Assembly: GCA_012514185.1 (NCBI GenBank)
Contig: JAAZAT010000070.1
Coordinates: 1-40,433 of the forward strand
Reading direction: 5' to 3'
DNA length: 40,433 nt
Source of the DNA: Spirochaetales bacterium
Lineage (GTDB): Bacteria; Spirochaetota; Spirochaetia; Sphaerochaetales; Sphaerochaetaceae
Position 1 is the stretch's first letter, and each line of letters starts with the position of its first letter. Below the pieces are notes generated by a model, which was not told where the DNA came from, made no database searches, and saw only the letters and a list, made by a program, of their open reading frames with translations. Shown one piece after another: positions 16,961 through 28,841 of this stretch. The position numbers and the translations under genes are program-made.

Positions 16961-18871
16961 CTAGATGCAACGCACTGCATGATAGCCGTGGTGGACGGCA
17001 CTGAGAATGTTGTCAGGATTCTCGGCATCGCCGACCAGTGCACAGTCGATCTTGTCGGAGAGTTGGTCGTACAAGACGGTGTTGGCCTTGTAGCCGGCTG
17101 CAATGGCAACCGTATCGGCTTCGATCGTGTGCTTCTTGCCGTCCTTCTCATACACTACCATTCCGTTTTCAAAGGCAAGCACCTTTGCACTGGTGATCGC
17201 CTCAACCTTGGAGTCCTGAATCAACTGCCTGAGTGCTTGGTCGTTGTTCTTGCTATGACTGGTGGTCATCAGGATTTCCGGCAGCATCTCGATCATCGTC
17301 ACCGATTCAGCACTTTGCGCTGCGTGACAGGCGGTCTCACAACCGACGAGGCCTGCTCCGACGACAACAACCTTCTTGCCGTAGCTCTTCTTGGACGTAA
17401 GCAAATCGTTTGCACCTACAACCCAACTCTGGTCGATCCCCTTGATCGGAGGCATGACAGGAGTCGCACCGGTTGCGAAAATCACCTTGTCATAGTTTCC
17501 TCTCAGAATCTCTTCGGCACTGCCATCCTTCATCAAGGAAACCTTCACCGTGCTGCGGTGCAGTTTCTGGACCAGGAAGTCCACATAGTCCTTCACATCC
17601 TTCTTGAAAGAAGGCCCGCCGGCTGCCAAAAGCAAGCCGCCCAATACGTTGCGCTTTTCCCACAGCTCGACCTGCATGCCTCGTTCGGCTGCGGTCAAGG
17701 CAGCGGTGATGCCTCCCGGGCCACCACCGACAACAAGCACACGCTTATTAGGAGCGACCGGTCCGAGCGGATAGTAATCCTCGGCAAATGCATGGGGGTT
17801 TACTGCACACTGGAGAATCTTGCCGCTGAAGCCGGCATACAGACACTCGTTGCACCCGATGCACGGGGTGATATCGTAGGTTTCGTTCTTCTTGACTTTT
17901 TGCACCCAGTACGGATCGGCAATCGCCATATGCCCAAGTCCGATCATATCCGCCTTGCCGTCGACCAACGCCGCTTCTGCATCGGCAGGATTCTGCATCT
18001 TGCCCTGGGAGAGCACCGGAACGCCGACATGCTTCTTGATCTCTGCGGCGATGGGAAGCTGCACCATCGCAGGCTGGTATACTGTATTGATCGCCTTGTA
18101 CCAGGCCTCATAACAACCCACGTCGACATGCAGGGCGTCGACACCGGCTTGTTCGAGAATCTTGGCCATCTCGATTCCTTCGGCAAGCTCACGTCCGCCT
18201 TCCACCCCATGGTACGGAGTAAATTTGAAGAGGATCGGGAAACCAGGCCCGACAGCCTCGCGGATGGCCTTGACGCACTCAACCGAGAAACGCATCCGAT
18301 TTTCAAGACTTCCCCCATACTCATCGGTACGGGTATTCCACATGGTTGACTGGAACTGGTCCATCAGGTACCCGCCGTAACCGTGAAGCTCGACGGCATC
18401 AGCACCTGCACGCTTTGCAAACGCTGCACCCTCGCCCATTTTATTGACCAAAAATTGAATGTCTTCCTTGCTGAACGCCTTGCACTTCAAGCCGGGGAAC
18501 CAGAAGGAATCGACTTCGCTGACCGAATAGGGACGTACATCGGCGGTGGTGAACTGCATTCTTCCAAGACCAGGCGTCAGCTGGATGCACAGCTTGGCCC
18601 CATGGTTGTGTACCCTGCGGGCGAGGAAGTTCATCTGCTCGAACGACTTTGCTGTACCGATGACGTTGCATGCTTTTGCCTCATACTGCATGGTTACCTG
18701 GTTGGCACCGGTGATGATGAGCCCAAAACCACCCTTCGCCCGTTCCTCGTAGTAACGGATCGAACGGTCTGAAAAGGAACCATCCGGTTCGGTCTGCGTT
18801 CCCATAGGAGCCATATAGATGCGGTTGCGCAACTTCATCGCTGCAATGTTTGTCTGTTCAAGTAACTTCAT
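16961..18871 (-). CDS. NADH:flavin oxidoreductase / 2,4-dienoyl-CoA reductase (enoate reductase) family protein
   Basis: 636 residues in the classic layout. An old-yellow-enzyme TIM barrel with FMN covers about 1-330 (MAPMGTQTEPDGS near the start, and VELHGYGGYLMDQFQ then RTDEYGGSLENR). A 4Fe-4S cluster loop follows, with Cys spacing CIGCNEC and a fourth Cys in LQCAVNP. An FAD/NAD(P) domain completes the protein (VLVVGGGPGGITAALTAAER and KVVVVGAGLVGCETACHAAQ). Family members reduce activated C=C bonds of enoates, dienoyl-CoAs or bile-acid intermediates in anaerobes. GGAGG lies 7 bases before the ATG. It is divergent from a TetR regulator and has a palindromic operator just downstream of its promoter, so it is probably induced by its substrate. 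Confidence 0.92.
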   Translation of the reverse strand: MKLLEQTNIAAMKLRNRIYMAPMGTQTEPDGSFSDRSIRYYEERAKGGFGLIITGANQVTMQYEAKACNVIGTAKSFEQMNFLARRVHNHGAKLCIQLTPGLGRMQFTTADVRPYSVSEVDSFWFPGLKCKAFSKEDIQFLVNKMGEGAAFAKRAGADAVELHGYGGYLMDQFQSTMWNTRTDEYGGSLENRMRFSVECVKAIREAVGPGFPILFKFTPYHGVEGGRELAEGIEMAKILEQAGVDALHVDVGCYEAWYKAINTVYQPAMVQLPIAAEIKKHVGVPVLSQGKMQNPADAEAALVDGKADMIGLGHMAIADPYWVQKVKKNETYDITPCIGCNECLYAGFSGKILQCAVNPHAFAEDYYPLGPVAPNKRVLVVGGGPGGITAALTAAERGMQVELWEKRNVLGGLLLAAGGPSFKKDVKDYVDFLVQKLHRSTVKVSLMKDGSAEEILRGNYDKVIFATGATPVMPPIKGIDQSWVVGANDLLTSKKSYGKKVVVVGAGLVGCETACHAAQSAESVTMIEMLPEILMTTSHSKNNDQALRQLIQDSKVEAITSAKVLAFENGMVVYEKDGKKHTIEADTVAIAAGYKANTVLYDQLSDKIDCALVGDAENPDNILSAVHHGYHAVRCI

Positions 18872-18899
18872 GTGACATTCCTCCTGTCAGGTATTGATG

Positions 18900-18915
18900 T
18901 ATTACCGCGGTAATA
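18900..18915. promoter_or_regulatory. TetR operator 1 (TATTACC-GC-GGTAATA)
   Basis: A 16-base perfect palindrome, 29 bases upstream of the oxidoreductase ATG and downstream of its -10 box. Binding here would block transcription of the oxidoreductase. Its core, TACC-2-GGTA, is shared with the second site at 18977. Confidence 0.7.
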
Positions 18916-18934
18916 ATTTTGCTTACTTTAGCAC

Positions 18935-18963
18935 ACCATAACAATAAAAAACTTCTATGTCAA
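18935..18963 (-). promoter_or_regulatory. Strong promoter of the flavin oxidoreductase
   Basis: On the minus strand, a perfect TTGACA (18958-18963), a 17-base spacer with a T-run, and TATGGT (18935-18940). It lies between the two operator palindromes. Confidence 0.65.
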
Positions 18964-18976
18964 TCATTTTTTATCG

Positions 18977-18990
18977 ATACCTTGGTATCT
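18977..18990. promoter_or_regulatory. TetR operator 2 (GATACC-TT-GGTATC)
   Basis: A 14-base inverted repeat with the same TACC-2-GGTA core as operator 1. Its centre is 76 bases away from the first, on the TetR-gene side. It probably serves autoregulation. Confidence 0.6.
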
Positions 18991-19050
18991 ATAACTGACC
19001 TTGTTGCCATGGTGAAGTTCTGCTACAGTAAAAAAGAAGGGGTGACCTAT

Positions 19051-19620
19051 ATGGATATGAAGGCATACATCATTGCCAAGGGCGGCGAGTTGTTCAAGGA
19101 GAAAGGGTATGAAGCGGTCACCGTCAACGATATCTGCACTGCCTGCGACATCACAAAAACCACGTTTTATTACCATCTTTCATCCAAGCAGGATATCCTG
19201 CTTCAGCTGTACGATGTCATCGTCGACAACCTGACCCCGATGCTCAGGCAAATGATCCACCTCGACTCCAGCTGGGAACAAATCAAGTTGCTGTTCGAAC
19301 ACCTGATCACCGCCTTTATTGCATTGGGTCCTGACTTGAACAGCCAGTTGCTCATCGTCAACCTGCAACGCAAGGAACGTGCGTTGGATGTCCGTACAAA
19401 CCTGCAGGAAATTGCCGTCGACCTCATCGCCCAAGGGCAGAAACGAGGACAAATCCGCAATACCAATGATCCTGCAAGTCTTTATGCAGCGGCAGCCTAC
19501 ATGTTCACCGGCTATGAATACATGTGGTGCACGCTTCGCGGAGAGTTTGCCTGGAAGGATTTGTTCTTTGCTTCGTTGGAGTCCCTGCTCGATATAGAGC
19601 CGAAGCTGCGCTCACACTAA
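19051..19620 (+). CDS. TetR-family transcriptional regulator
   Basis: About 189 residues. The N-terminal helix-turn-helix (EAVTVNDICTACDITKTTFY, then YHLSSKQDILLQLYD, about 22-57) is typical of TetR repressors, and the all-helical rest would bind a small ligand. GAAGGGGTGA lies before ATG 19051; a second ATG two codons later is also possible. An earlier in-frame opening from 18919 runs through the operator and promoter region and is not used. It is divergent from the enoate-reductase-type gene, and the gap holds two related palindromes, so it very likely represses that gene and itself. It ends at a stem-loop shared with the AraC-type gene. Confidence 0.88.
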   Translation: MDMKAYIIAKGGELFKEKGYEAVTVNDICTACDITKTTFYYHLSSKQDILLQLYDVIVDNLTPMLRQMIHLDSSWEQIKLLFEHLITAFIALGPDLNSQLLIVNLQRKERALDVRTNLQEIAVDLIAQGQKRGQIRNTNDPASLYAAAAYMFTGYEYMWCTLRGEFAWKDLFFASLESLLDIEPKLRSH

Positions 19621-19657: not shown

Positions 19658-20530
19658 TCAAGCCTTGTTCACCGGCCGTACGGGCCTTGCTTCGATGTAG
19701 CCGCGATAGCCCATCGGGGCAAGCTGGAACCTGGGACCGTCCTCATCGGCCCACTGATACCCATAGAGAGTCGGATCGTAGGTCTTCATCAACTCCCAAA
19801 GGTTGGTGATTGCACTTTCAAACTTCTCTTCGTCAAAGGGAGGGCCTTGGAACACCATCATCGAGCAGGCAGGCAACGTGATGATATGAAACCCTTCAGG
19901 TATGGCACCGGTAAACGAGAGAGGAACCTCCACTCCCTGCAGGTACTCGCCAGTCCCCAATTTTCTCAGGTTCTCAGGCATCCACATTCCTATGGGTTCA
20001 AACAGGGCTCCTTCGATAGAGCCCAGGATATCCCAAATATCACACCCTACTTCCTCGCAATACTCAAAGTAATGCGTTGCCTTATGGGCAAACTTAACCA
20101 CTGCTTTCCGTTCCGGCCGCTGGACAACCTGGACAAAAACCGTTTCCATACGTGTTTCTCCTTCGCTGTTTGGTGTAAGGGTCGATCGCTGATGATAAGC
20201 GGCAAGAGCTTTGCGGAATGCAGAGGGATTCATACCGAACTGCTTGGTGAAGGCACGCGTGAATCCTTCATGCGAGTCGAATACGAACTCAAATGCTACA
20301 TCTACAATACTCCGATCACTCGTACCCAAGGCATGGGCTGCAGAAGCAAGCCGCCTGCTTCGGATATACGAAAACGGGGCGCAACCGGTTGCTTCCTTGA
20401 ACAGCCTCTGTGCATGCCATGGTGAATACGCAGCAGCCGATGACAGAGCGCTTTGGGTGATTGGATCATCCAAATGCTCTTCAATGTAGGAGAGCATCCG
20501 CATCACCGCACGCTTTTGAAACTCATCCAT
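19658..20530 (-). CDS. AraC-family regulator with a GyrI-like effector domain
   Basis: About 290 residues. The N-terminal 105 residues are an AraC-type double helix-turn-helix (DPITQSALSSAAAYSPWHAQ, then RLFKEATGCAPFSYIRSRRL and FDSHEGFTRAFTKQFGMNP). From about 130 on, a GyrI/AraC-effector domain follows (VQVVQRPERKAVVKFAH to the end), which in relatives such as Rob or BmrR-type proteins binds small hydrophobic drugs or metabolites. The ATG at 20530 is chosen; GGAGG lies 12 bases upstream and the longer start at 20575 gives an unconserved leader. The gene stands alone, convergent with the TetR gene and divergent from the DeoR operon, so its targets are unknown. Confidence 0.85.
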   Translation of the reverse strand: MDEFQKRAVMRMLSYIEEHLDDPITQSALSSAAAYSPWHAQRLFKEATGCAPFSYIRSRRLASAAHALGTSDRSIVDVAFEFVFDSHEGFTRAFTKQFGMNPSAFRKALAAYHQRSTLTPNSEGETRMETVFVQVVQRPERKAVVKFAHKATHYFEYCEEVGCDIWDILGSIEGALFEPIGMWMPENLRKLGTGEYLQGVEVPLSFTGAIPEGFHIITLPACSMMVFQGPPFDEEKFESAITNLWELMKTYDPTLYGYQWADEDGPRFQLAPMGYRGYIEARPVRPVNKA

Positions 20531-20692
20531 CTTCAATCTCGTCCTCCAGCTTGATCCTAGTACAACGCCGTACACCTTTCTTGACCGTCCTTGCTAGTAT
20601 CGCATCAAATGATCGATTCTTGCATTCATGATTCCCTATGAAAATCATATTTTTTCAATTATTTATCAGAATTATTCATTTATTGATTTTTC

Positions 20693-20721
20693 TAGACAAC
20701 AAGAATCTTCAATGCTACAGT
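20693..20721 (+). promoter_or_regulatory. Candidate promoter of the deoR-mtnP-mtnA-ABC operon
   Basis: TAGACA (20693-20698), a 17-base spacer, and TACAGT (20716-20721). An AT-rich stretch of about 55 bases (20641-20695) lies directly upstream and could act as an UP element. The mRNA leader would be about 78 bases. Confidence 0.45.
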
Positions 20722-20802
20722 TGAAGAAAAGAAGTCAGGAAGGGAGTTTTGTACATCAGCACCTGTTTTCGGTGTACAATTGAAGATAAGGAGAGTCCAG
20801 GA
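20716..20802. repeat. Imperfect direct repeat with a TGTACA inverted pair upstream of deoR
   Basis: TACAGTTGAAGAAAAG (from 20716) and TACAATTGAAGATAAG (from 20775) match at 14 of 16 bases, 59 bases apart, and the similarity continues into AGTC/GTCC-AGGA. Between and overlapping them, TTGTACA (20749-20755) and TGTACAA (20773-20779) form an inverted pair with centres 24 bases apart. The first copy overlaps the candidate -10 box and the second runs into the deoR ribosome site. This is a plausible operator for the DeoR protein. Confidence 0.5.
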
Positions 20803-20804
20803 GC

Positions 20805-21554
20805 ATGATCCCATACGTCCGCCAGAGCCAGATCTACTCATACATCAAGATGAAGCAGATTGCATATATCGATGAGCTCCTGGATTTGGCCAAAGTATCG
20901 CTTCCCACCGTGCGTCGCGACCTCAAGAAGCTGGAAGAAGAAGGAAAAATCATCCTGCTCAACGGCGGTGGTGTCAAGCTTTCTGAGGAAGAGAAGCACT
21001 CGGTTGTTGCAAGATTGGAGGTCCAGGCAGACGAAAAGTACCTGATTTGCAACAAGGCCGCCTCCCTGCTTGAGAACGATGAGTTTATCTATGTCGGGCC
21101 GGGGACAACCGAAGACTACCTGATTGGTTTCTTGGCGGGGAAAAACATCACCGTAGTCACCAACGGCATCTATCATGTTCCGAAGCTGTTGGAATACCAC
21201 ATCAAGACCATTGTGATCGGGGGGAGGCTCGACCACAACTACGGCATCACCTGCGGACCAGAGGTACTGGAGGAGCTCGATCGGATGAACTTCTCCACGG
21301 CCCTGATCGGAGCAAGCGCCGTGTCAGATTCTGGCGTCTCTTCATTCGACCGGGATGTCTCGGTGATCAATCGAAAAGTCCTTTCCAGGTCAAAAAAGCG
21401 CATCCTCTTGGTTGATTCAACCAAATTCAGCGCCTTCTCACATCATGTATTCGCTCGCATAGAGGATTTTAACCACATTATCACCACGGCTAAAGCAGGT
21501 GTCGATAGCAGGGACATGGCCAACCTTGTCCTTGCCGATACCGCTGATTTATAA
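20805..21554 (+). CDS. DeoR-family transcriptional regulator of the nucleoside salvage operon
   Basis: 249 residues. The N-terminal winged helix is present (KMKQIAYIDELLDLAKVSLP, then TVRRDLKKLEEEGKIILLNG, the classic DeoR recognition pattern), followed by the DeoR sensor domain (YVGPGTTEDYLIGFLAGKNI, TNGIYHVPKLL, TIVIGGRL and LVDSTKFSAFSHHVF). Family members sense phosphorylated sugars. Here the likely ligand would be a product of the next two genes, such as (methylthio)ribose-1-phosphate or ribulose-1-phosphate; this is inferred from context only. CAGGAG lies right before the ATG. It is first in the operon, 18 bases from the phosphorylase gene, and repeats suited to autoregulation lie upstream. 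Confidence 0.88.
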   Translation: MIPYVRQSQIYSYIKMKQIAYIDELLDLAKVSLPTVRRDLKKLEEEGKIILLNGGGVKLSEEEKHSVVARLEVQADEKYLICNKAASLLENDEFIYVGPGTTEDYLIGFLAGKNITVVTNGIYHVPKLLEYHIKTIVIGGRLDHNYGITCGPEVLEELDRMNFSTALIGASAVSDSGVSSFDRDVSVINRKVLSRSKKRILLVDSTKFSAFSHHVFARIEDFNHIITTAKAGVDSRDMANLVLADTADL

Positions 21555-21572
21555 CAGGAAAAGGTGTTTTGC

Positions 21573-22346
21573 ATGAATAAAGCAATTATCGGAGGAACCG
21601 GAGTCGGCTCGCTTGCGAACCTGAAAGGTCCCTTTGAGACGGAAACAGCATACGGGACGGTTCAAACCTATCGTTTTTCCCTGGGCGAAGAAGAGATTCT
21701 TTTCTTACCCAGACACGGAAGCGGTCATACGACACCGCCGCATGCCATCAACTATCGCGCCCAGATGGCCGCCTTGAAACAAGAGGGCATACGCTATGTC
21801 TACGCGCTGGCGACCAGCGGTTCCATGGACCCATCGATCAGTGAAGGCTCGATCGTGGTGATCGAGGACTTTCTTGACTTCACCACCGGCCGCATCAAGA
21901 CCTTCTTTGACGGCAGCGACCACAAGGTTGCCCATGTCGACATGAGCGATCCCTACTGCAGGAACTTGAAGAGTTTGTTTGTTCAGCATGCAAACAGACA
22001 AGGAGTCGACTTGTACACTGGAGGGGTGTATGTGTGCACCGAAGGCCCGCGGTTCGAAGGCAAGGCTGAAATCGCCATGATGCAGAAACTCGGGGGTACG
22101 CTGGTCGGCATGACCGGCATTCCTGAAGTCTTTTTGGCAAAGGAGCTTGGACTTTGTTACGCTGCCATCGGCATGATTTCCAATATGGCCTGCGGTATAC
22201 GCAATGAGAACCTGGCACGCATCGACCACGGACAAAGAATTAGTGAAGCAAAGGAAGCGGTGATGAAAATCATCACACACGTGTTTTCCACCAGCGTTCT
22301 CGACCAAGACCATTGTGACTGCTCCAACGCAGTTCTCTACTTATAA
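21573..22346 (+). CDS. mtnP: Purine nucleoside phosphorylase of the MTAP/MTIP family
   Basis: About 257 residues, with the family's phosphate-binding RHGSGH at 47-52, the PHAINYRAQ segment, ATSGSMDPSISEGSIVV, CTEGPRFEGKAEI and GTLVGMTGIPEVFLAKELGL. It should split methylthioadenosine or a related 5'-modified nucleoside with phosphate into a base and 5-modified ribose-1-phosphate. The purine-contact segment reads SNMACG: Asn204 and Ala206 stand where human MTAP has Asp220 and Asp222. This resembles enzymes that prefer 6-oxopurines (methylthioinosine phosphorylase). The true substrate may thus be an inosine rather than an adenosine. ATG 21573 has GGAAAAGG upstream. The isomerase gene follows after 13 bases and uses the sugar phosphate made here. 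Confidence 0.86.
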   Translation: MNKAIIGGTGVGSLANLKGPFETETAYGTVQTYRFSLGEEEILFLPRHGSGHTTPPHAINYRAQMAALKQEGIRYVYALATSGSMDPSISEGSIVVIEDFLDFTTGRIKTFFDGSDHKVAHVDMSDPYCRNLKSLFVQHANRQGVDLYTGGVYVCTEGPRFEGKAEIAMMQKLGGTLVGMTGIPEVFLAKELGLCYAAIGMISNMACGIRNENLARIDHGQRISEAKEAVMKIITHVFSTSVLDQDHCDCSNAVLYL

Positions 22347-22359
22347 AGAAGGAGAAGCG

Positions 22360-23424
22360 ATGCACACCACCATCCCAGTCAGTCTGCAGCACGATCCCGA
22401 ACGATTGGTTCTGCTCGACCAGACTAAACTCCCCGAACAAGAGCTGTTCTTGTATTTGGATAGCAGGGACTCAATCTACGAAGCCATCAAGAAGCTTCGG
22501 GTGCGGGGAGCCCCGGCCATCGGCATAGCTGCCGCCTACGGAATGTATGTCTGCCTTGCCCGGCAGAGCTATCCGAGCATGGAGGCCATGGCGCATGATT
22601 TTTCTGTCTTGAAGCACTACTTTGCCTCAAGCCGTCCGACCGCCGTCAACCTGTTCTGGGCCCTTGAGCGCATGCAAAAGCGCTTTGACGCAGAGTTGGC
22701 CCTGGAAGGGGCAAGCCGCAGCAGCATCCTCAACGCCCTGCTTGAAGAGAGCTCGGCCATCTTTGCCGAAGACCAGGCTATGAGCATCGCCATCGGAGAA
22801 CATGGGCTCGCGCTTTTTGACAAGCAAAAGCATTGGGGTGTGATGACCCACTGCAACGCCGGGGGCTTGGCCACCAGCGGCTATGGCACCGCCCTCGCCC
22901 CGCTCTATCTCGGTCATGAGCAGGGTTACTCGTTCAGCATCTACGCGAATGAGACCAGGCCGCTTTTGCAGGGCAGCCGCCTGACCGCTTATGAGCTGGC
23001 CAAAGGAGGGCTCGATGTCACCATCCTCTGCGACAACATGGCCTCCTTGGTGATGAAGGAAGGAAAAATCGATGCTGTCATCGTCGGGGCCGACCGAATC
23101 GCGGCCAATGGCGATACCGCCAACAAGATCGGCACTTCGGGGGTTGCAATCCTCGCAAAACATTACGGCATTCCTTTCTATGTAGCAGCCCCCAGTTCCA
23201 CATTCGACCTTGCCACCAAGCATGGCAGCGACATCGAAATCGAACAGCGCGACGGCGAGGAAGTGGTCAACGGTTTCGGCAGGCGCACCGGACCTGTGGA
23301 TGTGCAGGTCTACAACCCGGCCTTCGATGTGACTGATGCCGCTTTCATCACGGCCATCATCACCGAGAAGGGGATCATCAAGAACCCGACAACCGAGAAG
23401 GTAGCAAAGCACTTGCATGGTTGA
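22360..23424 (+). CDS. mtnA: S-methyl-5-thioribose-1-phosphate isomerase
   Basis: About 354 residues, the family's normal length. It carries RVRGAPAIGIAAAYGMY, the catalytic Cys165 in MTHCNAGGLATSGYGTALAP, and Asp245 in VGADRIAANGDTANKIGT. The 80-residue separation equals that of Cys160 and Asp240 in the Bacillus enzyme. It converts methylthioribose-1-phosphate (or 5-deoxyribose-1-phosphate) to the ribulose form in the cytoplasm. GAAGGAG lies before the ATG at 22360. It directly follows the phosphorylase that makes its substrate. None of the usual next steps (mtnB, mtnK, mtnC, mtnD, or a class II aldolase of the DHAP shunt) is in the window, so the fate of the product must depend on genes elsewhere. 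Relation to eIF2B-like proteins is excluded by the intact active site. Confidence 0.94.
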   Translation: MHTTIPVSLQHDPERLVLLDQTKLPEQELFLYLDSRDSIYEAIKKLRVRGAPAIGIAAAYGMYVCLARQSYPSMEAMAHDFSVLKHYFASSRPTAVNLFWALERMQKRFDAELALEGASRSSILNALLEESSAIFAEDQAMSIAIGEHGLALFDKQKHWGVMTHCNAGGLATSGYGTALAPLYLGHEQGYSFSIYANETRPLLQGSRLTAYELAKGGLDVTILCDNMASLVMKEGKIDAVIVGADRIAANGDTANKIGTSGVAILAKHYGIPFYVAAPSSTFDLATKHGSDIEIEQRDGEEVVNGFGRRTGPVDVQVYNPAFDVTDAAFITAIITEKGIIKNPTTEKVAKHLHG

Positions 23425-23448
23425 CGGGTTGGATATTGCAAAAGCGCG

Positions 23449-23462
23449 ACCATCTTGATGGT
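23449..23462. promoter_or_regulatory. Inverted repeat ACCATC-TT-GATGGT between mtnA and the Bmp gene
   Basis: A 14-base inverted repeat in the 70-base gap before the binding-protein gene. It could be an operator for an internal promoter or a small hairpin in the mRNA. Confidence 0.3.
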
Positions 23463-23494
23463 GGTTGCTGGTATTTCCAAGTAAGGAGAAGGTT

Positions 23495-24619
23495 ATGAAG
23501 AGAGTATCCGTATTCATCGCACTGGTTCTTGTCACCGGCTTGCTTTTCGCAGCAGGAGCTGCAGAATCAAAGCCGGCAGCCGCTGCCGGTTTGAACATCG
23601 CCATTATCACCACCCCCTCAGGGGTCGACGACGGCTCGTTCAACCAGGACAACTACAACGGGATTCTTGCATTTGTGAAGAATCATCCCACAGCAAAAGT
23701 AACAGCCATCCGTGAGCCCAGCGGAGACGTTGCAGCCGCCCTGAAAGCAGCGGCCGATGTCGTAGCTGAATATGATGTATTGGTCTGCACCGGGTTCCAG
23801 TTTGCAGGAATCGGCGAGCTTGCCATGGAAAACCCCGAGACCAAGTTCATCCTTGTAGATACCTACCCTACCGATGCAAAGGGCAATACCGTTGAGCTTC
23901 CCAACGTCTATGCCATGACCTTTGCCGAGCAGGAGTCTGGGTTCTTTGCAGGAGTTGCAGCCGCTCTTGAGACCAAGACCAACAAGGTCGCAGTAGTCAA
24001 CGGTGTGGCCTACCCTTCGAACGTCAACTATCAGTACGGCTTTGAGTCCGGCGTCATCTACGCAAACAAGAAACTCGGCACCAAAGCCCAGGTCATAGAG
24101 CTTGCTTCCCGTGCCGGCACTGATGTTACAGGAGCCAATGTAGGTGGAAACTATGCAGGATCGTTCGCCGATGAAGCAACCGGCAAGGTGATCGGCCAGC
24201 AGTTGTTCGCACAGGGCGTCGACATTATTTTCGTTGCAGCAGGAGCTACGGGCAATGGCGTGTTCACTTCTGCAAAGGAGAGCAACGGCAGGCTGAAGGT
24301 CATCGGCTGCGACGTTGACCAGTGGGACGACGGGACGGTGGGAAGCGGCAACATCATCCTGACCAGCGTCCTGAAGGTGATGAGCTTGAACGTCGAGCGT
24401 GTGCTGAACCAGATCCAGGATGGAACCTTCAAGGGAGCAAACATGTTGCTGAAGGCTGACACCGACTCCACCGGATTTGTGAAGAAAGCCGGTCGAAACC
24501 AGCTTTCCCCCGCCACCATCCAGAAGCTCGATGAGGCATATGAGCTCGTACAGAAAGGTGTTCTTGTTCCTGCATCCAACTTCGGCGGTTTCACCCCCGA
24601 GCAGTTCAAGGTAAACTGA
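23495..24619 (+). CDS. Bmp/PnrA-family nucleoside-binding periplasmic protein
   Basis: About 374 residues. A signal peptide (MKRVSVFIALVLVTGLLFAA, then GAAES) is followed by a Bmp/PnrA-type binding protein, with IITTPSGVDDGSFNQDNYNG at the start of the fold, YDVLVCTGFQFAG, AMTFAEQESGFFAGVAAAL, and VAAGATGNGVFTSAKE then VIGCDVDQWDDG. PnrA of Treponema and BmpA-D of Borrelia bind purine nucleosides. Unlike those lipoproteins, no Cys is present at the cleavage site, so this one is probably soluble in the periplasm. AAGGAGAAGG precedes the ATG at 23495. It heads the transporter genes and follows the MTA-salvage enzymes, so its ligand is probably a nucleoside such as methylthioadenosine, deoxyadenosine or an inosine analogue. 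Confidence 0.9.
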   Translation: MKRVSVFIALVLVTGLLFAAGAAESKPAAAAGLNIAIITTPSGVDDGSFNQDNYNGILAFVKNHPTAKVTAIREPSGDVAAALKAAADVVAEYDVLVCTGFQFAGIGELAMENPETKFILVDTYPTDAKGNTVELPNVYAMTFAEQESGFFAGVAAALETKTNKVAVVNGVAYPSNVNYQYGFESGVIYANKKLGTKAQVIELASRAGTDVTGANVGGNYAGSFADEATGKVIGQQLFAQGVDIIFVAAGATGNGVFTSAKESNGRLKVIGCDVDQWDDGTVGSGNIILTSVLKVMSLNVERVLNQIQDGTFKGANMLLKADTDSTGFVKKAGRNQLSPATIQKLDEAYELVQKGVLVPASNFGGFTPEQFKVN

Positions 24620-24634
24620 GAAAACCAGTGATAT

Positions 24635-24658
24635 ACCCGTGCCTGTGAAGGCACGGGT
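24635..24658 (+). terminator. Stem-loop between the binding-protein and ATPase genes
   Basis: ACCCGTGCC and GGCACGGGT form a 9-bp stem with a 6-base loop, 16 bases after the binding-protein stop. There is no T-run. It probably attenuates transcription or protects the upstream mRNA, so that the binding protein is made in excess over the membrane parts. Confidence 0.65.
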
Positions 24659-24683
24659 CCCTGTTGCAGAGAGGCATATCGAC

Positions 24684-26222
24684 GTGGAAAACCTTGTAGA
24701 ATTTCGGCATATCACCAAACGATTTCCCGGCATTGTTGCGAATGATGACATCTCCCTGGCGGTACGCAAGGGTGAGATTCTTGCCATCCTTGGCGAGAAT
24801 GGAGCGGGAAAAAGCACGCTCATGAGCATGCTGTTCGGCATGTATGCCCCCGATGAAGGCGAGTTGTACGTGCGGGGCAGACAAGAGAACATCACCAGCC
24901 CCCTGGTGGCCAACTCGCTGAACATCGGGATGGTCCACCAGCACTTCATGCTTGTGGAAAACCAAACCATTACAGAAAACATCATCATGGGCATCGAGCC
25001 GAAGAGACGTAAGTTCGGCCTGTTTCCCGTGGTGGATCTGGAAGCTTCCCACGAGAAGGTGCATCAGCTCTCCCTCAACTATCAACTTGAGGTGAATCCG
25101 AGGGACAAAATCGAGGATGTGCCGGTCTCAACCCGGCAGAGGGTTGAAATTCTGAAGATGCTCTACCGCAATGCCGAGATTTTGATTTTTGATGAACCAA
25201 CTGCTGTTCTGACTCCACAGGAGATTGAATCGTTGCTTCAAACCATCAAGGCCCTGCGTGACGGCGGAAAGACCATCATCCTCATCACCCACAAGCTCGA
25301 TGAGATCAAGCGAATCGCCGACCGCTGTGCAATTCTCTGCAAAGGAAAGCTCGTCGATGTCTTGGATGTCGCCACCACCTCGATTCAGCACATGTCGGCT
25401 TTGATGGTCGGCCGCGATGTCTCATTCACCTTGGAGAAAGAGGAGCATGAGAGAGGAGCCGAGGTCTTGCGGGTGGAGAATGTAAGCGTACTCTCGCTGG
25501 ACCACATAACGACGGTAGACTCCGTCAGCTTCAGTGTGCATGAAGGGGAAATCTTGGCGATAGCCGGGGTTTCCGGTAACGGCCAGGTGGAAATCGCCGA
25601 TGCAATAGCCGGCCTCATTCCGGTCAAGAGCGGAAACATCATTCTCTCAGGAAATGATATCACCAATGCCTCTGTTCGCAAGCGCATCGAGGCAGGGCTG
25701 AGTTACATCCCCGAGGACCGCCATGCCGTCGGCTTGATCCTCGACTTCCCCCTCAAGGAAAACCTCTGCCTAAAGCAGTATTACCGCCCTCCTTACAGCA
25801 ATGAACGGGGAATATTGCAGCATGAGGCGATGGCCGAGTTGGGCAGGTCCTTGATCGAGGAGTTCGATATCAGGACCAGCAAGGGAAACGACACCCTGGT
25901 ACGGAGCATGAGCGGGGGCAACCAGCAGAAGGCGATCATCGCTCGGGAGATCAATCTTGATTCCAAGCTGATCATATTCGTCCAGCCCACAAGAGGCTTG
26001 GATGTCGGTGCCATAGAGTCAATCCACATGCGCATCAACAAGCTGCGCAGCGAAGGGAAAGCCATCCTGCTGATCTCCTTGGAACTCGATGAGATCATGC
26101 AACTGTCCGATACCATTTTGGTCATGTACAACGGCAAGGTGCAGACCATCAAGCGAGCGAATGAACTGACAAAACTTCAGGTCGGTGAATACATGATGGG
26201 GGTGCATGTTGAAAAGAACTAG
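24684..26222 (+). CDS. Nucleoside ABC transporter, double ATPase subunit
   Basis: About 512 residues with two fused ABC domains, as in RbsA-type sugar/nucleoside importers. The first has Walker A GENGAGKS, a variant signature (VSTRQRVEILKML) and Walker B ILIFDEPTAVL. The second has the degenerate P-loop GVSGNGQVE, the signature SGGNQQKAIIAREI and FVQPTRGLDVGA in place of a normal Walker B, so only one full site probably hydrolyses ATP. GTG 24684 is chosen, with GAGAGG about 9 bases before it; an upstream start at 24639 lies inside the stem-loop. It energises import through the two permeases that follow; its 3' end overlaps the first of them by 17 bases. Confidence 0.92.
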   Translation: MENLVEFRHITKRFPGIVANDDISLAVRKGEILAILGENGAGKSTLMSMLFGMYAPDEGELYVRGRQENITSPLVANSLNIGMVHQHFMLVENQTITENIIMGIEPKRRKFGLFPVVDLEASHEKVHQLSLNYQLEVNPRDKIEDVPVSTRQRVEILKMLYRNAEILIFDEPTAVLTPQEIESLLQTIKALRDGGKTIILITHKLDEIKRIADRCAILCKGKLVDVLDVATTSIQHMSALMVGRDVSFTLEKEEHERGAEVLRVENVSVLSLDHITTVDSVSFSVHEGEILAIAGVSGNGQVEIADAIAGLIPVKSGNIILSGNDITNASVRKRIEAGLSYIPEDRHAVGLILDFPLKENLCLKQYYRPPYSNERGILQHEAMAELGRSLIEEFDIRTSKGNDTLVRSMSGGNQQKAIIAREINLDSKLIIFVQPTRGLDVGAIESIHMRINKLRSEGKAILLISLELDEIMQLSDTILVMYNGKVQTIKRANELTKLQVGEYMMGVHVEKN

Positions 26223-27336
26223 CCTTCTTAAGCGATTGTTCATCCTTTGCTGCGGCAAGGGCAGGCACCAGCTGCTGCGCACATCGCTGTTTTGCATTTT
26301 CCTCAGCCTGCTTGCAGGGACCATCCTGCTGCTGTTGTTGGACAAGAACCCCCTTGAAGCGTATACGAGCATTCTTCAGGGAGCCGGCATACTTCCCAAA
26401 GGCCGCTATGCAGGCAGGAAGAGCCAGCTGACAGACTTCATGAGCCTGCTCAACTACACCACCCCCATGGTGTTTGCAGCCCTTTCTGTCGCCGTTGCAC
26501 TGAAGTGCGGAATTTTCAATATTTGTGTCTCGGGCATCATGGTCTTTTCCGGTTTCATGGCCACGGTGTTTGTCGGGTATTCCAACCTCGACCCCATTCT
26601 TGCAAAAGTTCTGGTTGTCCTCATCGGTGCCTTGTCAGGTGCGCTGGTCGGCATCCTGATCGGCTATCTCAAGCATCGCTTCAATATGAACGAAGTGGTT
26701 GTAGCCATCATGCTCAATTACATCATCAGCTATGTGGTGAGTTTCTTCATCCAGACCCGGTTCATCGACCCGATCACCCGCCAATCGGTTGCAGTCGGGC
26801 AGAATGCCCGTCTGACGCTCTTCGACCATCCGGTGGGCAATCTCAAGATGGAGATAGCCTTGGTATTTCCGCTTGCCCTGCTCGCGGTCTTTGCCATCAA
26901 GTTCATGCTCGACCGAACCCGGTTCGGTTTCGAGTTGAAGGCTGTAGGAAGCAACAGCAAGGCCAGCAAATATGCCGGAATCCATGTGGGAAAAGCAGTA
27001 GTGTTCACCATGCTCATCAGCGGCTCATTGGCGGGTCTTGCCGGGGTTTCCTACTACCTGGGAAGCAACGCCTCCATACAGCCCAGGGTGCTCCCCTCCC
27101 TGGGATTCGATGCAATCGCAGTGGCCCTATTGGGAAACACCACCACCATAGGCAGTTTTTTTGCCTCGTTGTTGGTCATGGTTTTCGATTGCGGCACCAC
27201 CTACATGTCATCGCGCATGCAGGTGCTTCGTGAAATTGCTGCCCTGATCATCAGCATCCTGCTGCTCTTCAGTGCCATCGGCATCTTCTTTCGGAACCTT
27301 GCCGATCGATACCAACAGGAAGCAGAGGCGGTTTGA
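26206..27336 (+). CDS. Nucleoside ABC transporter permease (BPD_transp_2), first subunit
   Basis: 376 residues, with an N-terminal helix (LLRTSLFCIFLSLLAGTILLLLL) and about eight more membrane segments. The family pattern is visible in LLNYTTPMVFAALSVAVALKCGIFN, MNEVVVAIMLNYIISYVVSF, and FELKAVGSNSKASKYAG then LAGLAGVSYYLG. It resembles YufP-type permeases of nucleoside importers. The ATG lies within the end of the ATPase gene, with a G-rich ribosome site, so the two are translationally coupled. It pairs with the next permease, 4 bases away, to form the membrane channel. Confidence 0.9.
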   Translation: MLKRTSLLKRLFILCCGKGRHQLLRTSLFCIFLSLLAGTILLLLLDKNPLEAYTSILQGAGILPKGRYAGRKSQLTDFMSLLNYTTPMVFAALSVAVALKCGIFNICVSGIMVFSGFMATVFVGYSNLDPILAKVLVVLIGALSGALVGILIGYLKHRFNMNEVVVAIMLNYIISYVVSFFIQTRFIDPITRQSVAVGQNARLTLFDHPVGNLKMEIALVFPLALLAVFAIKFMLDRTRFGFELKAVGSNSKASKYAGIHVGKAVVFTMLISGSLAGLAGVSYYLGSNASIQPRVLPSLGFDAIAVALLGNTTTIGSFFASLLVMVFDCGTTYMSSRMQVLREIAALIISILLLFSAIGIFFRNLADRYQQEAEAV

Positions 27337-27340
27337 ACGT

Positions 27341-28300
27341 ATGAATACTATCATCATTGAAGGACTTTCTTTCTCGCTCCCCCTCTTCATCATCGCCATC
27401 GGCGGCATCTACAGTGAAGGAAGCGGTATCACCAATCTGGCTTTGGAAGGCTTGCTGGGCTTTGGGGCTTTCTTCGGGGGTCTCAGCTATGCAGTGCTCA
27501 GCAGGAGTTTCACAGGCGATCCTACCACACTGATCTACGCCTCGCTGGGCTTTGCCATGATCGGCGGAGCCTTGCTCGCCCTCTTGCACGCCCTGATGTG
27601 CATCAAGTTCAAGGCAAACCAGGTCATCAGCGGGGTGGTCATCAACATGCTCAGCGTCGCGCTTACCGCTTTTTTGGCCAATCAAATCAATGCATCATTT
27701 TTCGGACAACCTTCGAACAAGTTCTTGTTGGAAGTCTTCCCCAAAACTACCATCCCCCTGCTCTCCAACATTCCGATTCTGGGCGCAGTGTTCACCGATT
27801 TCTATACCTTTGAATTGATTATCGTCATAGTCGCCCTTTTCATGGCCTACCTACTCTACAAAACGCCGACCGGTATGCATATCCGCGCATGCGGGGACAA
27901 TCCTCATGCCCTGGCGGCAGCCGGAGGAAACGTCCAGAAGGTTCGTTTCTGGTCGGTCATCGCCAGCGGCGCACTCTCGGGGCTTGGCGGCATGTGCTTT
28001 GCCTACTCGATTTCAACCACCTTCTCTCCCAACATCTACATGGGCTTCGGCTACTTGGCCATTGCCGCCTATATATTCGGCTCTTGGAAAATCGGGCCCA
28101 CCTTCCTTGCCTGCATCCTGTTCGGCTTCGCCCGCAGCGGCGGCTACGTCTTGGTGCAAAAGCTCAAACTGCCTTCGTCGTATGGTGATCTGGTACTCAC
28201 CCTGCCCTACATCGTTACCTTGGTGTTGCTGCTCTTCTTCTCATCGGCCAACAAGCCGCCTCGAGCACTCGGCGAGGTATACGACCAAGCAAAGCGGTAA
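27341..28300 (+). CDS. Nucleoside ABC transporter permease (BPD_transp_2), second subunit
   Basis: About 319 residues, shorter than its partner, as is usual for YufQ-type subunits. Conserved features include ATGs followed by a hydrophobic start (IIIEGLSFSLPLFIIAIGGI), YSEGSGITNLALEGLLGFGA, KANQVISGVVINMLSVALTAF, GMHIRACGDNPHALAAAGGN and ASGALSGLGGMCFAYS. The ATG at 27341 follows the stop of the first permease by 4 bases; a longer in-frame start at 27272 lies inside that gene. It completes the importer with the Bmp protein and the ATPase. Confidence 0.9.
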   Translation: MNTIIIEGLSFSLPLFIIAIGGIYSEGSGITNLALEGLLGFGAFFGGLSYAVLSRSFTGDPTTLIYASLGFAMIGGALLALLHALMCIKFKANQVISGVVINMLSVALTAFLANQINASFFGQPSNKFLLEVFPKTTIPLLSNIPILGAVFTDFYTFELIIVIVALFMAYLLYKTPTGMHIRACGDNPHALAAAGGNVQKVRFWSVIASGALSGLGGMCFAYSISTTFSPNIYMGFGYLAIAAYIFGSWKIGPTFLACILFGFARSGGYVLVQKLKLPSSYGDLVLTLPYIVTLVLLLFFSSANKPPRALGEVYDQAKR

Positions 28301-28358
28301 GAGATCCCTCTTGCAAGAATCGATAAGGCAGAGCATGCTGATATAAGGAGGGATGCGT

Positions 28359-28841
28359 ATGAACAATGAGATTCGCCTGGATGCCATCAACGAAGCAATC
28401 GGGGAAGTTGCTACCGATATCGCCCAAGCCTATGCGGAGTTCGGGGATCTGATCAGCATATACTTGGGGCAAACCTCCTCGACGTTGCAGTTGCGCCTGT
28501 TCAGGCCGCTTGCCTTGGAGACCTCGCTGTATTTGTGTTTTCTTCTGTCCAAGGTGGATAGCCAGTTGGCAGCCTTGGTGAGCGATGATGCAAAGGCTTA
28601 TGCAACCGAGCTTGGCAGACAAGCAGAGACATTCGTCAAGGAGAGCCTGCTCGCATATGAGCATAGTCAGGACGCGCTTGCTCTCTTCATCCAGCGTTGT
28701 CAGGATGTAGTCGGAGGGGATGCATTGTGGTTGAGCACCCAGAGACAGGATGCCCAACCCCGCTTTTCCATCAATGATAAAGGTTATGTAGCAATCCATA
28801 AAGGGGCACAACGATTGGAAAGCCTGATGAATATTCTCTAG
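28359..28841 (+). CDS. Unknown helical protein at the end of the nucleoside operon
   Basis: About 160 residues, predicted mostly helical (LDAINEAIGEVATDIAQAYA, then FETSLYLCFLLSK-like segments and a KAYATELGRQAETFVKESLL stretch). No signal peptide and no recognised family. AAGGAGG lies 7 bases before ATG 28359; another ATG at 28353 is too close to that site. It follows the second permease after a 58-base gap with no clear terminator, so it is probably the last gene of the operon. A small palindrome, TCTTGCAAGA, lies at 28309-28318. Its 3' end overlaps the end of the S41-like gene by 4 bases. Function unknown; a role in nucleoside salvage is only suggested by position. Confidence 0.7.
   Translation: MNNEIRLDAINEAIGEVATDIAQAYAEFGDLISIYLGQTSSTLQLRLFRPLALETSLYLCFLLSKVDSQLAALVSDDAKAYATELGRQAETFVKESLLAYEHSQDALALFIQRCQDVVGGDALWLSTQRQDAQPRFSINDKGYVAIHKGAQRLESLMNIL

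Follow-up and report, generated by a model that had tools for sequence, protein, structure and literature searches.

A conserved gene block joining a Bmp-type nucleoside importer to MtnA in a Sphaerochaeta-like bacterium, a candidate relative of the dihydroxyacetone phosphate shunt

The gene row and its conservation

The DNA considered here (the window) is the complete contig JAAZAT010000070.1, 40,433 nucleotides long, of a Sphaerochaeta-like assembly (GCA_012514185.1; 2.76 Mb, 86% complete). Its positions 20805-28841 hold eight genes running in one direction, as a first-pass annotation of the sequence had described; all are intact, lie on the plus strand, and are separated by 18, 13, 70, 67, -17, 4, and 52 bases. 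The row opens with a DeoR/GlpR-family repressor (20805..21554; PF00455 and PF08220), which is also the first gene of the conserved block. It is followed by a nucleoside phosphorylase of the methylthioinosine phosphorylase/methylthioadenosine phosphorylase (MTIP/MTAP) family (21573..22346; PF01048, PNP_UDP_1), the aldose-1-phosphate isomerase MtnA (22360..23424), and a Bmp/PnrA-type nucleoside-binding protein with a signal peptide (23495..24619; PF02608). The remaining importer components are a double ATPase (24687..26222), assigned from Pfam and NCBIfam matches and its place in the conserved block, and two permeases of the BPD_transp_2 type (26206..27336 and 27341..28300; both PF02653). The last gene (28353..28841) encodes a protein of 162 amino acids without a Pfam or NCBIfam family match. 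No tRNA or Rfam matches were found in the window.

Conservation of the row was surveyed in 60 relatives, 25 of which are genomes of the same genus. A close orthologue of the phosphorylase (65-84% identity) is present in 12 of these 25. The block DeoR-phosphorylase-MtnA-Bmp-ATPase-permease-permease stands in identical order in 11 of the 12, with frameshifts in a single case, and the contig of the remaining genome stops after the phosphorylase. The recurrence of this order in 11 further genomes of the genus shows that the row is not due to chance, and roughly half of the Sphaerochaeta-type genomes have conserved the seven-gene block. The eighth gene does not share this conservation: a GGDEF gene intervenes before it in some relatives, it is missing in one (L053), and in another (G014) a relative of the protein sits at an unrelated place. 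Since it also lacks a family match, it is regarded as a downstream passenger. The eight-gene unit of the first-pass annotation therefore stands from DeoR through the second permease and loses its last member. In several relatives, a gene related to that of the 162-amino-acid protein overlaps the end of a GGDEF-domain gene (L045:15813-17545).

Importer, phosphorylase and isomerase

The best solved relatives of the binding protein are pneumococcal PnrA, T. pallidum TmpC and Borrelia BmpA/BmpD. In PnrA, the nucleoside is held by an aromatic stacking pair and by an Asp/Asp/Lys set at the ribose (PMC13325309). The stacking Phe aligns with F49 and the ribose ligands with D122, D273, and K294, while the second stacking position is occupied by another aromatic residue, Y179; all five residues are invariant in the alignment of the Bmp subfamily. 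Together with the PF02608 match, this pocket predicts a nucleoside-binding protein. The window protein thus shares its family and its conserved pocket residues with PnrA/TmpC and BmpD/BmpA of spirochaetes, but belongs to another subfamily that has Tyr where the second stacking Phe would stand, carries extra inserts, and is found with genes for MtnA and phosphorylases.

The phosphorylase passes the model for methylthioinosine (MTI) phosphorylase (NF006599; 231 bits, cut-off 223) and fails that for MTAP (TIGR01694; 240 bits, cut-off 274.85). In human MTAP, adenine is bound by Asp220 and Asp222 (PMC5738077). Asn204 and Ala206 align with these residues (1cb0), so the enzyme lacks the adenine site as well as the MTAP score, whereas Asn and Ala occupy the same purine-site positions in the P. 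aeruginosa enzyme 3ozb. Both the score and the purine site therefore agree with MTI phosphorylase. Asn204 is invariant and Ala206 nearly invariant among 13 aligned homologues, and the Asn of the 6-oxopurine signature is retained in every phosphorylase of the related operons, whether of the MTP type or of the purine nucleoside phosphorylase (PNP) type. Given this signature, a deaminated, inosine-type nucleoside is the expected substrate. 5'-Methylthioadenosine (MTA), one of the compounds that the first-pass annotation had named for binding tests, is accordingly not supported as the nucleoside on which the phosphorylase acts directly, since Asn204/Ala206 replace the two Asp residues.

The isomerase lies well over the cut-off for MtnA (TIGR00512; 414 bits vs 279), as a dihydroxyacetone phosphate (DHAP) shunt would require of its isomerase. 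In a tree of 47 MtnA proteins, it joins those of Firmicutes operons (support 97/94), forming an operon-type clade separate from the second MtnA of its own genome.

The connection between MtnA and the importer extends beyond the genus. When genome contigs were scanned with the Bmp alignment, 80 loci emerged, to which a plasmid of Pusillibacter faecalis was added. MtnA, counted when encoded on the same strand and within seven genes of Bmp, was found at 39 of these 81 loci, in Bacillota and spirochaetes, and mostly in Firmicutes. If no more than 2% of random neighborhoods are assumed to contain MtnA, the probability of this count is about 5e-44, a value that serves only as a guide because the loci are related to each other. 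The linkage with MtnA or the phosphorylase recurs with differing gene orders in both phyla. Companions at the 39 MtnA-bearing loci include an alcohol dehydrogenase (30 loci), an amidohydrolase regarded as a deaminase (23), an aldolase (19), a PNP (14), and an MTP-type phosphorylase (8), and the fullest clusters add a class II aldolase, a 6-oxopurine phosphorylase, an alcohol dehydrogenase, and a deaminase to the core. On the Pusillibacter faecalis plasmid, the order is aldolase-DeoR-cupin-SDR (short-chain dehydrogenase/reductase)-MtnA-Bmp-DeoD-ABC (ATP-binding cassette)-amidohydrolase. At most loci without MtnA, by contrast, inspection by eye found no recurrent catabolic gene among the sampled neighbors. 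The linkage at 39 of 81 loci and the co-encoded catabolic genes provide good support for a coupling of importer and MtnA, in agreement with the first-pass annotation, and it is likely that the importer feeds MtnA.

The closest solved relative of the amidohydrolase in Lachnospiraceae-type operons is the deaminase 4f0r, which acts on MTA and S-adenosylhomocysteine (SAH), followed by 4gbd, the MTA deaminase of P. aeruginosa, and TM0936. The Pusillibacter enzyme is closer to 8-oxoguanine deaminase. The Pusillibacter variant resides on pMM59_01 (L092), a plasmid of 504 kb typed as conjugative. In two further genomes, an importer cluster consists of genes for a substrate-binding protein, an ATPase, a permease, an amidohydrolase of the MTA-deaminase type, and an MFS-like transporter (L203 in G002 and L205 in G014); in L205, a class II aldolase and a PNP stand between importer and deaminase.

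Candidate genes elsewhere and the upstream region

The first-pass annotation had suggested searching the genome for mtnK and class II aldolase genes. Four class II aldolases were found, while MtnK was not, and neither acireductone dioxygenase nor a RuBisCO-like protein was detected; these absences are provisional because the genome is incomplete. The three markers of methionine salvage (MtnKABCDEWX) are lacking in the genome at its 86% completeness. Three of the aldolases were set aside as enzymes for other sugars, namely one resembling AraD (C254), one resembling rhamnulose aldolase (C177), and one in a kinase cluster (C252). The fourth (G000:C145) is 50-53% identical to the aldolases that lie between isomerase and PNP in the operons of two other spirochaetes, L100 and L103, the latter a Pleomorphochaeta, and 24-30% identical to the other operon aldolases.

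A deaminase candidate was found as well. On contig G000:C183 (L198:5491-7838), an MTA/SAH-deaminase-type enzyme is encoded directly 5' of the second canonical MtnA, and the pair is conserved in two further genomes (G010 and G012). On another contig (C76; L055:352-2584), a TadA-like deaminase, a divergent MtnA that scores below the cut-off of TIGR00512, and another MTIP-like phosphorylase stand in a row, near a gene for a pyridoxal phosphate-dependent enzyme of Met/Cys metabolism. The genome also encodes a relative of the operon alcohol dehydrogenase, with 31% identity.

In relatives of the window, DeoR is preceded by a gene for an exported protein of about 410-460 amino acids, here called LIP, which carries the motif QYGHSD...EPKVSIYxYLLDWGP and in some cases a lipobox (examples are L103:11671-12900, L129:3874-5256, and L053:7514-8758). 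Within the 25 genomes of the genus, LIP and the phosphorylase orthologue occur in exactly the same 12, and the remaining 13 lack both (Fisher P 2e-7, without regard to phylogeny). Relatives of LIP also adjoin the cluster in further spirochaetes and in Lachnospiraceae. LIP was not found in the window's own genome, at its present completeness. Positions 20531-20727 match the region 5' of LIP in two relatives (L042 and L044) at 71-75%. The match extends to a promoter-like TAGACA-17-TACAGT on the plus strand (20693..20721), with TG before the -10 element, and the sequences then rejoin just before DeoR, leaving a scar (20722..20790, plus strand) where the relatives carry LIP between promoter and DeoR. 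An apparent deletion of LIP is the simplest reading of this region. The consensus score of the promoter-like site is not in itself above chance; its evidence is the conservation across three genomes.

LIP has no Pfam or NCBIfam family at cut-off. An AlphaFold model (pLDDT, the predicted local distance difference test, 84) gave nothing significant in Foldseek, and VIA-align placed residues 28-157 weakly near SLH domains (Z 9.1, root-mean-square deviation 2.7, 110 aligned) and residues 219-344, again weakly, near CutA-like folds (Z about 5). No common operator was found in the alignment of the sequences ahead of the DeoR start. In the gap between MtnA and Bmp, the alignment revealed a stem-loop on the plus strand (23446..23468), and most relatives have a short hairpin-like repeat at the same position, without a good T-run; it may perhaps be an mRNA-stabilizing or processing element ahead of the binding-protein gene. 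A terminator search within the block gave 17 matches against 8.1 in shuffled sequences, yet the majority fall within coding regions or on the opposite strand, and they were discarded. Further upstream, a gene for an oxidoreductase of the old-yellow-enzyme type diverges from that of a TetR regulator (16961-19620) and adjoins an AraC-type regulator (19661-20530).

Proposed pathway and its place among known systems

The cluster very probably imports external purine nucleosides and splits them for sugar breakdown. In the whole reading, to which a probability of about 0.6 is assigned, it would constitute a DeoR-controlled, importer-fed, and deaminase-first version of the DHAP shunt. The Bmp-type ABC importer would take up purine nucleosides, and the deaminase encoded on G000:C183 would convert their adenine forms to inosine forms. 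The phosphorylase would then release the base and a 5-substituted ribose-1-phosphate, which MtnA would convert to the ribulose-1-phosphate form, and the unlinked C145 aldolase may cleave this product to DHAP and an aldehyde, with DeoR presumably controlling the operon. The main substrates are somewhat more probably than otherwise 5'-deoxy- and 5'-methylthio-purine nucleosides, the waste of S-adenosylmethionine metabolism.

Several observations weigh against this reading. The operon holds no aldolase, deaminase, or alcohol dehydrogenase gene; the first-pass annotation had remarked that genes for the next steps were missing from the window, and the rest of the genome holds candidates for the aldolase and the deaminase. 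The C145 aldolase stands alone and is present in 24 of 26 genomes of the genus, including those without the operon, and is therefore not dedicated to it. At only 86% completeness, the genome gives a partial inventory. The sequences contain no feature that specifies the 5' group of the substrate. The 5' side of the phosphorylase aligns ambiguously, and the His that binds the 5'-OH of ribose in ordinary PNPs is matched in most Firmicutes operon PNPs, which fits inosine or guanosine. The equivalent of His257, kept in most Firmicutes PNPs and lost in three loci (L100, L103, and L167), was considered as a marker of 5'-OH specificity and is not used as proof because it can be aligned only ambiguously in MTPs.

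In a less probable alternative, ordinary inosine or guanosine yields ribose-1-phosphate, the MtnA homologue converts it to ribulose-1-phosphate, and the aldolase releases DHAP and glycolaldehyde, skipping ribose-5-phosphate. Bmp/PnrA proteins are generally known to bind ordinary nucleosides, and in many Firmicutes operons a generic PNP or DeoD, mostly with the 5'-OH His retained, takes the place of the MTIP-type enzyme. Such a route would be a bacterial counterpart of the last step in the haloarchaeal ribulose-1-phosphate pathway; halophilic archaea possess a ribulose-1-phosphate aldolase (PMC12628685), and the model for this enzyme gives 215 and 134 bits with operon aldolases, below its cut-off of 300. 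However, the co-encoded deaminase is nearest to enzymes for 5'-modified adenosines and not to the adenosine deaminase family, the isomerase is a canonical MtnA, and the genome already encodes a PNP, two DeoD proteins, and a second Bmp importer with a DeoD. It is unlikely that the cluster merely serves internal clean-up, with an importer that recaptures leaked MTA or MTI for recycling to methionine. MTAP/MTIP and MtnA do catalyze the opening steps of methionine salvage, and methylthioribose leaks from cells (PMC6302742), but MtnK, acireductone dioxygenase, and a RuBisCO-like protein were not found in the incomplete genome, the deaminase-MtnA pair on C183 and the MTIP-like enzyme on C76 could serve this purpose instead, and the operon MtnA belongs to a dedicated clade tied to importers. 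An importer for another ligand, such as a vitamin, with the enzyme genes as mere neighbors, is very improbable. Many members of the Bmp subfamily occur without MtnA, and, among the named NCBIfam importer models, those nearest to the double ATPase and to the permeases describe putative B6 transporters; their scores, however, are far below the cut-offs, and the cross-phylum linkage in differing gene orders argues against coincidence.

Compared with published systems, the proposed deaminase-first pathway most closely resembles the DHAP shunt and 5-deoxyribose disposal (DrdK-DrdI-DrdA; MtnK-MtnA-Ald2), which likewise combine a phosphorylase or kinase, MtnA, and a class II aldolase; an MTAP homologue takes part in some of the published clusters. 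Clusters of kinase or phosphorylase, isomerase, and aldolase were reported from six phyla, and four of those drawn include putative sugar transporters; uptake of exogenous 5-deoxyribose was proposed (Beaudoin 2018; PMC6079011). E. coli with the shunt grows on external MTA and 5'-deoxyadenosine (PMC10986504) and represses it by the DeoR-family protein MtnR (PMC12632272). The window differs in its importer, a Bmp-type nucleoside ABC system from one subfamily tied to MtnA, in its 6-oxopurine phosphorylase, with a deaminase in the fuller related clusters, and in an aldolase that is unlinked in this genus. By analogy, the operon may work like the DHAP shunt, of which it is a candidate rather than a proven member. 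Systems of this kind are known, and clusters with transporters were published in 2018; the new elements would be the nucleoside-type importer, the inosine route, and the split layout. A literature search combining MtnA, BMP importer, and class II aldolase returned no match in the library consulted. Deamination before phosphorolysis and an MTIP-type purine site are shared with the MTA deaminase and MTI phosphorylase route of P. aeruginosa (Guan 2011/2012, as cited in PMC6302742), which in that account belongs to internal MTA metabolism, unlike the importer-linked arrangement here. In archaea, pentose bisphosphate pathways supplied with nucleosides (PMC12628685) also rely on a BMP-type importer and on nucleoside breakdown via an isomerase of the eIF2B family, but the isomerase here is MtnA and not ribose-1,5-bisphosphate isomerase, and no RuBisCO was found in the genome.

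Related clusters in many anaerobic gut bacteria hold most of the steps that are missing from the window. This pattern suggests that nucleoside waste, perhaps by-products of S-adenosylmethionine, serves some microbes as food. If the proposed pathway is correct, gut and sediment anaerobes would take up such waste by energy-driven transport and use it for carbon, and this waste may include MTA and 5'-deoxyadenosine released by their neighbors. A pathway would thereby be attached to a large, unnamed subfamily of Bmp importers and to the LIP family, and the system would offer a tractable test of microbial cross-feeding on S-adenosylmethionine by-products.

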